Shown: positions 3,575-20,075 of the stretch, piece after piece | Numbering within the stretch: the first letter of the stretch is position 1 | How the letters are laid out: each line of letters begins with the position of its first letter | Virus record (IMG/VR): IMGVR_UViG_3300020205_002701 | Location: 1-25,859 of that record | DNA length: 25,859 bases | Source of the DNA: a virus | Direction: 5' to 3' (one strand) | Program-made: the position numbers and the translations under genes | The notes under the pieces: model-generated | Database searches by the model: none | Told to the model about the DNA's origin: nothing | The model's input: the letters and a program-made list of their open reading frames with translations, nothing else

Positions 3575-4210
3575 TTATTTGAAAAACGCGCCAATCGTCC
3601 ATGACACGGCTTTGATAATTGCCTTGACTGCTGCATTAACTGGCAACTTGTCAGCTATGTAGCCGATGGCCAAAGCTATAGCTCCAATTGCTTTTTTTGT
3701 GGTGCCTTGAGTTGTGGGTAATTCTGTTTTTTCCACAGGTTTTTCCACCTTTTTTTTTATTTCCACAGGTTTTTCCACAGGTGCCGGTTTTGTCTCGACT
3801 TTTATCGGCTCATGGACAGGCTCAGACTTTTTTAAGCCTTTCAATTCTGCGTAACGGTTGAGCATGACAATAGCTTGATGCCAGATCAGTTCCATGATGA
3901 CTTTTTTATCATCGTCAAGATTTGGCATGAGGCGAATGTCTTTTACTTCTGCAAATTTCTTAGCATGCATTTCTGCAAACCGCATCTGATCGACATTATC
4001 TTTTGGAGCATCGACAAACCAGCGAGTTTGTGCAGCGCAATAACACCATAGGGCAAGCCAATTCTGAATTTTTTCTTGCTCACAACAAAAAGCAATTTCA
4101 CTCGCAAGCATTTGATCACGCGGCGCACGATCGGAACCACGTTCCGTTGACCACTCGTTAAGCTTGCGGCTATCTTGCCAATCAAATTTTTCAGACGAAA
4201 AATAAAGCAT
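3575..4210 (-). CDS. Hypothetical protein with Lys/Pro linker and hydrophobic C-terminus
   Basis: 211 residues from ATG 4210, where AAGGG lies close upstream. A TTG at 4264 would extend it, but that extension would run through a strong hairpin. An N-terminal helical domain rich in Trp, Cys and charged residues (about 1-125) is followed by a low-complexity KPVEK/KPAP linker (about 130-165) and a C-terminal hydrophobic or amphipathic stretch (about 170-211). The linker DNA contains a duplicated block (TTTCCACAGGTTTTTCCAC, about 3729-3747 and 3768-3788). The layout of domain, Pro/Lys linker and membrane-seeking tail recalls envelope-spanning lysis proteins, but no spanin or holin signature is visible. 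Function unknown. Confidence 0.6.
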   Translation of the reverse strand: MLYFSSEKFDWQDSRKLNEWSTERGSDRAPRDQMLASEIAFCCEQEKIQNWLALWCYCAAQTRWFVDAPKDNVDQMRFAEMHAKKFAEVKDIRLMPNLDDDKKVIMELIWHQAIVMLNRYAELKGLKKSEPVHEPIKVETKPAPVEKPVEIKKKVEKPVEKTELPTTQGTTKKAIGAIALAIGYIADKLPVNAAVKAIIKAVSWTIGAFFK

Positions 4211-4230
4211 ATGCCCTTCGAGAGAAAGAT

Positions 4231-4254
4231 GGCCAAGCCGTCCTTGGCTCGGCC
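4231..4254 (-). promoter_or_regulatory. 5' leader hairpin upstream of the 3575-4210 gene
   Basis: Arms 4231-4239 (GGCCAAGCC) and 4246-4254 (GGCTCGGCC) form a 9-bp, GC-rich stem with one G-U pair and a 6-nt loop. It sits 20 nt before the ATG at 4210 in the leader. No T-run follows, so it is not an intrinsic terminator. Confidence 0.5.
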
Positions 4255-4297
4255 ACCGAACCAACTAACTTACAGGAGTGTAAATGGTATTTAGCTT

Positions 4298-4326
4298 ATT
4301 TTACTGTGATAAGGCAAAAAAAGCAA
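4298..4326 (-). promoter_or_regulatory. Possible leftward promoter
   Basis: On the - strand, TTGCTT (4326-4321) and TAAAAT (4303-4298) are 17 nt apart. The -10 is 5/6 and the -35 is 3/6. It overlaps the T-run of the terminator at 4316-4343 and would serve the two leftward genes ending at 3292. Confidence 0.3.
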
Positions 4327-4343
4327 GGGGGGCGACCCCTTGC
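4316..4343 (-). terminator. Intrinsic terminator for leftward transcripts
   Basis: GCAAGGGG (4323-4330) and CCCCTTGC (4336-4343) form a perfect 8-bp stem with a 5-nt loop. Seven A on the + strand (4316-4322) become the T-run on the - strand. There is no T-run in the + direction. It lies beyond the amidase and HNH genes, so their transcript would run antisense through 4520-5085 before stopping here. Confidence 0.8.
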
Positions 4344-4345
4344 CT

Positions 4346-4440
4346 GCCGTTGTCCCCGCTAGGCTAAAGCCTGCATAGTCGGCGGCTTGCGAATTTCGCA
4401 ATTTTATTAATTATAACCCTAGTAGCCTCTCTTAATAAAG
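4346..4440. other. Gene-free structured stretch
   Basis: GCCG 4346-4349 pairs with CGGC 4380-4383 around an inner AGGC/GCCT hairpin (4361-4364 / 4369-4372). A separate near-perfect palindrome, TTGCGAATTTCGCAA, lies at 4387-4401 and is followed by TTTTATT. It could be a small RNA end, a weak + strand terminator or a protein-binding site. No coding frame is apparent. Confidence 0.3.
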
Positions 4441-4519
4441 CTATTCCTAAAATCTTCTTTACCGCCAAATACGAGTTTGATATGGGGGTGCGGTGGTTAA
4501 TTTTCACAGGAGTACCGAA

Positions 4520-4822
4520 ATGGACAAAGTGACAGTAAATGGCGTTGATTATTTCAAGAAAGAAACTGGATCAATTAAGATTGCAATCCTTCAAAGAGGG
4601 TGGGTCATGGTCGGCTATTTTAGTCGAGAAGGCAACGACTGCACATTAACAGATGCAAGCGTCATTAGAACTTGGGGGACGACTAGGGGACTAGGGGAAA
4701 TTGCGCTAGGTGGCCCAACTTCATCGACAAAATTAGACAAAGCCGGAACCGTTCAATTTGATTACTTGACGGTTGTTGCGCTGGTAAGTTGTGAGGAGTT
4801 GAAATGGAAAAACGCACTATAA
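4520..4822 (+). CDS. DUF6948-like small protein
   Basis: 100 residues from ATG 4520, preceded by AGGAG at 4508-4512. A GTG at 4493 would add nine residues but has no SD. The segment at residues 48-80, with VIRTWGTTRGLGEIALGGPT and a TVQF motif, matches the pattern of small phage proteins I know as DUF6948: compact, beta-rich, function unknown. The gene overlaps the next one (4804) by 19 nt, with that gene's GAGGAG SD inside its own 3' end. The two are therefore translationally coupled and probably work together. Confidence 0.6.
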   Translation: MDKVTVNGVDYFKKETGSIKIAILQRGWVMVGYFSREGNDCTLTDASVIRTWGTTRGLGEIALGGPTSSTKLDKAGTVQFDYLTVVALVSCEELKWKNAL

Positions 4823-5085
4823 ATTTTGAAGATTCGCAATCCTCATTTGGGAAATGGGACGAGTACGGGAACGGGAACGGGTACGGGTACGGGTACGGGA
4901 ACGACGGGAACGGGAACGGGGACGGGTACGGGTACGGAACCGGGAAAGGGAGCGGGGACGGGTACGGGTACGGAACCGGGAAAGGGAGCGGGTACGGGAA
5001 CGGGGACGGGTACGGGTACGGGAACGACGGGAACGGGAACGGGGACGGGGACGGGGACGGGAAAGAGAACGGGAACGGGTACTAG
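4804..5085 (+). CDS. Gly-Tyr/Asn/Asp repeat protein encoded by a hexanucleotide array
   Basis: 93 residues. This frame is chosen because ATG 4804 has GAGGAG 6 nt upstream (4793-4798) and is coupled to the preceding gene. After 21 ordinary residues the protein is almost entirely G-x dipeptides (GN, GY, GD, with GT, GK and GS blocks) and ends in GY at a TAG. The other two forward frames are also open across the array (Gly-Thr and Arg-rich dipeptides) but lack a good start. No structure or enzyme can be predicted; a flexible or phase-separating low-complexity protein is possible. Its TAG touches the TAG of the convergent HNH gene (TAGCTA at 5083-5088). Confidence 0.6.
4867..5082 (+). repeat. GGGNAC hexanucleotide array (telomere-like, G-quadruplex-prone)
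   Basis: About 35 consecutive six-base units, mostly GGGAAC, GGGTAC or GGGGAC, interrupted twice by GAC (4903 and 5026) and by GGAACC, GGGAAA, GGGAGC and GAGAAC variants. By my count 32 GGG tracts fall on one strand, mostly 3 nt apart. Higher-order copies exist: a 36-bp unit at 4924-4959 and 4960-4995 (one base different), and a 39-bp unit at 4885-4923 and 5008-5046. This indicates growth by duplication or slippage, with reading frame kept. Confidence 0.9.
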
Positions 5086-5424
5086 CTACTTGATCCGCAA
5101 AAGAAAGATACGCCGAATTGCAGAAATTGATTCATTAATCGACCGATTTGCTTTTTTGTAATCACCCAGATGGCCGACAAATAGGTGGCAGTTGATGCCA
5201 CTTTTTTTGCTTTCGCATAGTGCCAAAAGGTTTGACGGATCTAGCTCCCTTTCGGGAGCCTCATGAAACGGCACAACATGGTGAGCCTCTAACTTGTCGA
5301 TACCTCCGCACACAGCACAACATGCATCTTTTAAAAAATCATTTCTAAACTTGCGCCATTTTGGAGAACGACGTTTGAAGTTTTTGGTTTTGCCAAGCAG
5401 TTGATCTTTTAAAATGCTTATCAT
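5086..5424 (-). CDS. HNH endonuclease
   Basis: 112 residues from ATG 5424, which overlaps the amidase stop (ATGA) and has GAAGAG about 8 nt upstream. A longer start at 5448 has no SD. Motifs: CxxC at Cys36/Cys39; the HH pair at 48-49 in [17 protein letters not shown] with Asn65 and Cys70; NCH at 78-80; His85. This is the zinc-stabilised beta-beta-alpha-metal HNH fold with all key residues. The basic N-terminus could bind DNA. A phage HNH protein of this size may assist packaging or act as a free-standing homing nuclease. Its position behind the endolysin rather than near a terminase argues slightly against packaging. Confidence 0.85.
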
Positions 5425-6308
5425 GTTTTCGGCTCTTCTTTGCGCCATAAAAAGAAATCTTCAATGCCTCTGCTGATTGCCTTGACACTTTTATCCACCA
5501 TTAAATCAACACTGACAGGCAAAGGCCCGTCGATGAAAAAGCATTCTACGAGGCAGCAAGGGATTTTTGAAGGCACACCACGAAGCACGCCAAGGCTTTG
5601 CTCTTTAACGCCACGATTTGGGATTTCATGGAAAGCTTTTAAACCGGCAAGAATTTTCCCAGCTAGAATTTTGTCAGCCTCTGACGCTTGATTTTGATTC
5701 AGAACGAGTGTCTCAAAGCCTTGAGCCTTAAGATTAAAAGCATTGTGGTGGATTGAGACAAAGCAATCATGGCCAGCAGCCTTGCTTCCTTTTTGTCTTA
5801 AAGTTAGTTTCAGGTTTGGATTGTCGTAATAATAGACATCCACCGTCGCGCCAAGTTTTTCCAAAGCTTCCTTAACGCCGAGGCCAGTGCGGTGATTAAG
5901 ATCAACTTCTTTTACGCCGTTGCCCGTAGCTCCAACGTCAAACGTGGCTAGAGAGGCATCAAACCCGTGACCGCAATCAATCGCTATTTTCATTCCAGTT
6001 AAAGTTCTGTCCACTCTTGCCTGCATTTGTGAGATGTTTACGAGCGCGTTCTCTCGTCTTTCCGCGACGATCACACCTTTTGAATATCCTACGATTCTTA
6101 TCTTGCGCTCGCCGGAGCCTTTAAATTCATAGGCACATTCCCATGCACCGTCTTTTATTTTTGCTTCACCAAATTTATAAGTCTCGGCGTATAGTTCGAT
6201 CTTATCAACTGTCTTTCCGCACTCGCCGCGAAAAAGGTAGTTAGTCTTTAAGGCGATTGGCCTTGCGAAATTATTTTCGACCGTTAAAAAATTTGCGTCG
6301 CTTGGCAT
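5421..6308 (-). CDS. N-acetylmuramoyl-L-alanine amidase (endolysin, Amidase_3 type)
   Basis: 295 residues, ATG 6308 with AAGGTGAG just upstream. Residues about 105-285 form a zinc amidase of the AmiA/CwlV (Amidase_3) family: DCGHG with His114, Glu134 in VKEVDLNHR, the SIHHN motif with His187, and the catalytic Glu255 in CLVECFF. It cuts the bond between muramic acid and L-alanine in peptidoglycan. Residues about 8-95 look like a beta-sandwich (Ig-like) domain, possibly for substrate or wall binding. There is no signal peptide, so release would need a holin or similar. The HNH gene follows with a 4-bp overlap. Role in lysis is inferred from the family. Confidence 0.9.
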   Translation of the reverse strand: MPSDANFLTVENNFARPIALKTNYLFRGECGKTVDKIELYAETYKFGEAKIKDGAWECAYEFKGSGERKIRIVGYSKGVIVAERRENALVNISQMQARVDRTLTGMKIAIDCGHGFDASLATFDVGATGNGVKEVDLNHRTGLGVKEALEKLGATVDVYYYDNPNLKLTLRQKGSKAAGHDCFVSIHHNAFNLKAQGFETLVLNQNQASEADKILAGKILAGLKAFHEIPNRGVKEQSLGVLRGVPSKIPCCLVECFFIDGPLPVSVDLMVDKSVKAISRGIEDFFLWRKEEPKT

Positions 6309-19286: not shown

Positions 19287-20075
19287 TTACTTAAACCAGT
19301 TTCCTACAGTGCGAAAGGGGCTCGTAAGTAGCGTAGGCTTGTTAGACGCCTCAGCTTGCATTCTTGAAGCGTAGTCTGCCCCCTTTTGTTTCATGAGTTC
19401 GGTGTACGTAGTCAAGGCTCCGGTGTTTTTAAGCTGCTCGCGGTTCAACATATTGCCAGCGTTTTGCAAAGCGGCTTGTTGTTGATAGCCGGAGTTGGTT
19501 TTGGCGATGTCCATAGACATGTCTTGCGCCTTCATACCTACTCCAGCCCTGTCCGCTACGCCCTGCCCTAGAGTCATCTGATTGCCCATGATGTTAGCTT
19601 CGTTAGCCTGTGCTGCCATTCTCTCGCCTGCGCCGCCTCTTAAACCGCCCCTCATGGCAAGCCCTGAACGTGCTTGTGCGAGTCCAGAGTTAGCAAGGCG
19701 TCCTTGCTTATCCATTTGCATAGACTCTTCTTCGCGTTGCTTGCGCTCCGCCAATTGTTGCCACGCGCCGGAGGTATCCGCCATTTGCGCCGGAGTAGCC
19801 ATTGCGCCCGATTCGGTGATGTATTCGGGGGGTTTTTCGTAAGCTGGGGCACCGCCTCCGCCGCCTCCGCCGCCTCCGCCGCCTCCGCTGCCCTTTTTAT
19901 TGGCCATCGCTCCGCCTGCGTATAGAGTGCCAGCCGCCGCCGCACCCGCTGGCCCGCCTAGGACGAATCCCGCCGTTCCTGCCGCCGCAGTGCCTAGAGC
20001 ATCTCTAAGACCTAATTTACTACCGCCCGTCCAAGCATTGCTTATGCCTTTGCCAGCTTTTTGAAGTAGGCCCAT
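19287..20075 (-). CDS. Gly/Ala-rich internal (ejection) protein with poly-Gly linker
   Basis: 262 residues, ATG 20075 in TAATG with GGAGG 7 nt upstream. Residues about 27-57 are a glycine-zipper-like hydrophobic segment (GTAAAGTAGFVLGGPAGAAA), followed by 12 consecutive Gly (64-75). The C-terminal part is helical and Gln/Met/Ala-rich. The hydrophobic head, flexible linker and helical tail suggest a membrane-active virion protein released with the DNA. Similar Gly/Ala-rich proteins lie next to adaptor genes in many podovirus-like genomes. Confidence 0.6.
   Translation of the reverse strand: MGLLQKAGKGISNAWTGGSKLGLRDALGTAAAGTAGFVLGGPAGAAAAGTLYAGGAMANKKGSGGGGGGGGGGGGAPAYEKPPEYITESGAMATPAQMADTSGAWQQLAERKQREEESMQMDKQGRLANSGLAQARSGLAMRGGLRGGAGERMAAQANEANIMGNQMTLGQGVADRAGVGMKAQDMSMDIAKTNSGYQQQAALQNAGNMLNREQLKNTGALTTYTELMKQKGADYASRMQAEASNKPTLLTSPFRTVGNWFK
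19852..19887. repeat. Four exact 9-bp units encoding poly-Gly
   Basis: CCGCCTCCG is repeated four times without change on the + strand. This encodes the Gly run of the 262-residue protein and is prone to length change in steps of three residues. Confidence 0.95.

Follow-up and report, generated by a model that had tools for sequence, protein, structure and literature searches.

We suggest, as an overall reading that we hold to be probable, that the GGGNAC array of this phage is the body of a cassette gene for a (Gly-x)n protein, that this gene is hypervariable and selected for its peptide, and, more tentatively, that its product would be the disordered partner of an Sm-like protein. The component claims on coding, codon register, cassette and hypervariability, taken together, are very likely to be correct. 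The window, i.e. the whole stretch of DNA that was analysed, spans the whole of an IMG/VR virus record (25,859 bases), the single record for its own phage; the following features carry the argument.

4520..4822, plus strand: partner gene, DUF6948-like with a predicted Sm/LSm-like fold, 100 aa; GTG at 4493 is an alternative possible start
4793..4798, plus strand: GAGGAG within the partner gene, likely the site at which ribosomes bind for the repeat gene, from the sequence
4804..5085, plus strand: (Gly-x)n gene, 93 aa, overlapping the partner stop by 19 bases, from the list of open reading frames and the same layout in relatives
4804..4866, plus strand: non-repeat N-terminus of the (Gly-x)n gene, 21 residues
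4867..5082, plus strand: GGGNAC array, 216 bp with 32 GGG tracts, body of the open reading frame 4804-5085
4885..4923, plus strand: 39-bp block, first exact copy
5008..5046, plus strand: 39-bp block, second exact copy, 123 bp downstream of the first
4924-4959 and 4960-4995, plus strand: 36-bp higher-order tandem copy, one mismatch
5183..5203, plus strand: terminator-like hairpin and T run after the gene pair, from a pattern scan only

The first-pass annotation had described a GGGNAC array with about 32 GGG tracts in a coding gene, and this description is borne out: the plus strand of 4867-5082 holds 32 tracts inside the open reading frame 4804-5085, 26 of three G and six of four, with 23 overlapping G4-type motifs and a G4Hunter score of 1.43. 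Elsewhere in the window, such runs, of G or of C, number at most 11 per 216-bp stretch. Tandem Repeats Finder places a period-6 array at 4865-5079, the strict period being interrupted locally by NDG, TGKGSG and KENG. The higher-order copies of 36 bp and 39 bp that had been reported are real, the former with one mismatch and the latter exact and extending to 44 bp. Glycine is encoded by GGG in 33 of the 35 glycine codons of the gene, which is far from chance because the other genes of the window use GGG at 18% (binomial P ~1e-22).

Judged by its sequence, the frame that opens at 4804 is coding: it has a ribosome-binding site, with AGGAG 5 bases ahead of the ATG, a recurring N-terminus (16 residues) and counterparts in relatives, among which the N-terminal motif INFE[DE]SQ.S recurs. 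The remaining five frames are also stop-free across the array as a result of the GGGNAC unit. The earlier claim of open forward frames thus holds for the window array; it does not extend to the family, as another forward frame is interrupted by stops in 27 of the 80 homologous arrays. Programmed frameshifting to the +1 frame, which is open, was rejected, since relatives show, by eye, nothing equivalent to the +1 extension of the window gene (to 5161). Likewise, a stable non-quadruplex RNA fold of the array was no better than shuffles (z +1.78), and no sigma-70-type promoter-like site was found in 4200-5500. The pair forms a plus-strand island amid minus-strand genes at 3575-4264, 5086-5448 (HNH-type) and 5421-6308 (endolysin), and this layout (window 3575-5448) is typical of accessory cassettes. 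Separately, the window contains at 19852-19892 a 9-bp CCGCCTCCG repeat with 4.6 copies, which forms a poly-Gly stretch in the minus-strand open reading frame 19287-20075.

The same two-gene arrangement recurs in many phages. Scans of viral contigs with the partner gene, and then with an alignment of its relatives, gave some 85 loci; bacterial genome contigs contributed only four loci to the partner scans. In 80 distinct cases a (Gly-x)n gene directly follows the partner gene, mostly overlapping its stop and often with a related N-terminus; the x residue in these arrays is chiefly one of Tyr, Asp, Asn and Ser. The reverse search identified coding arrays by DNA pattern alone in two registers, and is thus a sample. 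Among the pattern matches listed, a DUF6948-type gene lies within 1.2 kb of 162 of the 173 coding arrays that have 500 or more bases upstream, and, whatever the upstream length, 163 of the 175 arrays that have a DUF6948-type match have it upstream. Part of these array-linked partners are canonical DUF6948 proteins. Named phages with the pair are the Rheinheimera Barba phages, Eggerthella phage PMBT5 (gp37/gp38), two Manatee Spring phages and a Rhodobacteraceae phage. In L011, the closest relative found, the partner protein is 82% identical to that of the window and the array is GGC-NAT; the 5.5 kb of L011 hold no counterpart for ten tested window genes outside the pair.

Variants of the arrangement also occur. 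At L074 (1947-2420) no stop separates the partner frame from a short Gly-x stretch that follows in frame; this single case is possibly a fusion of the partner and the repeat gene. L106 (1120-2246) has a tandem alternation of two array-partner modules in which the array stands ahead of the partner. Related Gly-rich frames follow the partner gene at L115 (2269-2960) and have a common C-terminal stretch like RLLADDYDINFYICQL. The genes near the pair are mixed and include DNA methyltransferases, annealing proteins and nucleases, with no family in more than three of the 99 proteins scanned; the genomic neighborhood was therefore rejected as a clue to function. The partner had no match in plasmids, and DUF6948 had none in 398 bacterial genomes, in which the control likewise matched nowhere. 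A tblastn search with an invented generic repeat peptide gave no matches, low-complexity masking being the probable cause.

Sequence and model comparisons place the partner near DUF6948. The window protein matches DUF6948 (PF22253) with 19.6 bits and E 0.001, below the Pfam gathering cut-off of 27 bits, and 20 of the 40 members of the partner alignment match PF22253 at E 0.01 or better. The profile of the partner family matches that of canonical DUF6948 members (hhalign E 2.8e-6, probability 88), and the partner model matches a DUF6948 protein in BFVD with TM ~0.8. These comparisons argue that the partner is a divergent, distant relative of DUF6948. Its AlphaFold model is confident (pLDDT 93.9) and the top solved fold matches of this model are mostly Sm/LSm proteins, the best being 3by7 (Foldseek E 2.7e-4, VIA Z 8.6, TM ~0.5). 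The predicted structure thus suggests that the partner carries an Sm barrel fold, the resemblance being moderate. Sequence searches gave no LSm or Hfq profile and only DUF6948, for the window protein at E 1 and for the 40 members at E 0.01, and for this reason we treat the Sm likeness as a resemblance of fold and not as membership. Against the PDB, sequence profiles gave matches at chance level only.

The variation within arrays is concentrated on one base per unit. A single Gly codon makes up at least 95% of the units in 57 of 80 arrays, and the third base of the Tyr, Asn, Asp and His codons is equally uniform (>=95%) in 65 of 80. In contrast, none of the 80 is uniform at the first base of these x codons. 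Accordingly, mean entropies are 0.23 and 0.13 bits at the synonymous positions versus 1.36 bits at the first base of x. The order of x residues has no excess of like neighbors (lag-1 z -3.1), and long repeated strings of x are few (12 of 71).

Comparisons between close relatives reveal recent changes. The array-holding span among 115 Rheinheimera phages differs by +0, +6, +30 and +42 bp, and the haplotypes of the main Rheinheimera phage species differ solely by units and by x-base states. Across near-isogenic pairs, ten SNPs fall within recognised array units, every one of them on the first base of x, and array indels are of 6, 6, 12 and 30 bp; some of the adjacent SNPs may represent single events. 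For L104/L105, L055/L061, L059/L061 and L150/L184 the array changes are the sole differences over 2.4-4.8 kb, and in L059/L061 one 30-bp indel is the sole difference in 3.27 kb. L285/L308 differ additionally just beyond the recognised units, and L131/L189 and L106/L107 differ outside the array only. The active expansion that the first-pass annotation had read from the higher-order copies is thereby supported, as a gain and loss of units in relatives, in which near-isogenic phages differ by 6, 12 or 30 bp in the homologous array. From these alignments we class the array as a phage minisatellite that is in frame and hypervariable, its whole-unit length change being seen in relatives and not in the phage of the window. 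Because synonymous bases are almost uniform, the x base varies and several near-identical pairs differ only in the array, this minisatellite appears to be kept for its peptide.

In an opposing explanation, selection acts on the array as nucleic acid: a G-quadruplex would block forks, stimulate recombination or repress translation, with the peptide as a by-product. The window array, with its 32 GGG tracts and G4Hunter score, has the layout expected of a quadruplex, at least four G3 tracts separated by short loops, and GGG-register arrays are not rare, counting ten of 80 homologues and at least 119 stretches by DNA pattern; a quadruplex may still form physically in such arrays. The tracts are not conserved in homologues, however. 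The main Gly codon over the 80 arrays is GGC in 62, GGG in 10, GGT in 6 and GGA in 2, so that GGG tracts are few or absent in 70 of the 80; the frame, the N-terminus, the mixture of residues and the partner are all kept despite the codon change. GGG has been gained and lost along the tree of partner proteins, with eight changes of which at least five are forced by well-supported branches. The register has no simple relation to G+C (L019 is all GGC at 31% G+C and L024 nearly all GGA at 71%), and the mixture of residues at x is nearly equal across all registers. The first-pass annotation had allowed for a role of the G-quadruplex layout as DNA, RNA or protein and had asked whether homologues conserve the GGG periodicity or the peptide alone; the relatives keep the peptide and use other Gly codons, the outcome that it had named as a refutation, and we reject the G-quadruplex as a conserved feature. 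Selection of the array as a nucleic-acid element is, in our assessment, highly unlikely. Comparison of these sequences indicates instead that the peptide is conserved and GGG is not, GGG being one of four interchangeable Gly-codon registers.

As a minisatellite, the array changes in two ways, by gains and losses of 6n bp and by substitutions at the first x base. For this pattern we propose that slippage, together with recombination among units, would far outpace point mutation, and synonymous differences would consequently be wiped out array-wide as intra-array recombination homogenises the units; selection on the peptide, i.e. for the residue mixture and for few runs, would maintain the diversity of x. 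The data are nearly reproduced by a toy simulation, its selection rules having been chosen, in which slippage greatly exceeds mutation while selection acts on composition and disfavors runs. Slippage with selection on composition only yields runs and was rejected, as was neutral slippage alone, which homogenises x as well. The latter result bears on the idea that the array is neutral junk expanding by slippage with no selected function. Length and order do differ between near-identical phages and the repeat protein has no predicted structure, as this idea would have it, but selection-free slippage strong enough to homogenise the synonymous sites would also homogenise x, and none of the 80 arrays is uniform at x. 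Moreover, diverse phages maintain the start, the frame, the N-terminal motif and the linkage to the partner, and frame-broken arrays next to intact partner genes are scarce, making neutrality very improbable. Alternatively, the x base could be diversified by dedicated targeted mutagenesis as in diversity-generating retroelements, which would fit the restriction of all in-array SNPs of near-isogenic pairs to the first base of x, the near-random order of x and the frozen synonymous sites. Against this, a search of 11 phage records, of which several are fragments, detected no reverse transcriptase (RVT_1), with three control genomes positive; the second base of x is mostly a fixed A, unlike the outcome of adenine mutagenesis of the whole codon; and several changes resemble swaps or shifts of adjacent units. 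Recombination of units that differ at one base leaves an identical signature with no mutator, and it shows only at the x base because the units are otherwise alike, which supports the recombination reading. Targeted mutagenesis is thus not needed to explain the data and we consider it unlikely.

The link between DUF6948 and the repeat gene provides a first context for both and a testable function. Text searches on the array-partner pair found nothing in the open literature, and DUF6948 is named in no paper of the open literature searched, most subscription papers lying outside the scope of both searches. The pair is nameless and occurs in phages with named hosts as different as Rheinheimera and Eggerthella; its annotation is piecemeal, with labels such as 'lamprin', 'adsorption protein' or hypothetical, and in one case follows a wrong frame. 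Annotated arrays lie at L117 1803-2093 (MW202566.1), L009 1755-2069 (MW202613.1) and L129 2731-3057 (NC_048022.1); in L117 the annotated frame over the array is wrong (MVKVMVMV...) and the Gly-x frame is open, and outside L117 the labels are 'lamprin' or 'adsorption protein'. The array is among the fastest-changing spots seen in these phages. With synonymous bases nearly frozen, one amino-acid-changing base variable and recent events visible by comparing near-identical phage genomes, it offers a clean natural system for the study of phage repeat evolution.

As for function, the repeat protein is predicted to be unstructured (pLDDT 42, single-sequence prediction). By analogy we tentatively suggest that it is a disordered chain with regularly spaced tyrosines that would work with the Sm-like partner, probably in a multivalent manner, in binding or in assembly in the course of infection; a joint role of this kind is favored because an Sm-type core with a Gly-rich disordered partner recalls Acinetobacter Hfq. 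More speculatively, the pair might be a widespread, so far undescribed two-protein phage system, in which an Sm-like protein and a reshuffled, disordered Gly-x chain with spaced tyrosines assemble with host or phage RNA or protein. If so, each phage would have a lineage-specific, fast-changing low-complexity chain, since intra-array recombination would continually reshuffle its sequence.

The pair can be compared with several known systems. Canonical DUF6948 genes also precede (Gly-x)n arrays and the window partner is distantly related to them; it lies under the Pfam cut-off, however, the Pfam description names no function and the repeat gene is outside the family. The solved metagenomic protein 3by7, described as Sm/LSm-like, matches the partner model in fold better than any other solved structure, yet identity in the structural alignment is ~20% and the sequence profile does not find 3by7. 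Silk genes are an example of concertedly evolving protein minisatellites, with which the array shares uniform codons per array, whole-unit length change and a Gly-rich low-complexity product; unlike in these, mainly one base per unit varies here, the order is near random and the codon register switches between related phages. In Acinetobacter Hfq, a Gly-rich tail with GGFGGQ repeats works with the Sm core and repeat number matters (PMC11617691). The likeness lies in an Sm-type core combined with a glycine-rich, repetitive, disordered segment (PMC11617691), whereas Hfq is one polypeptide and a proven RNA chaperone with GGFGGQ repeats, and the phage pair consists of two genes with an alternating Gly-x chain and an Sm likeness by fold only.
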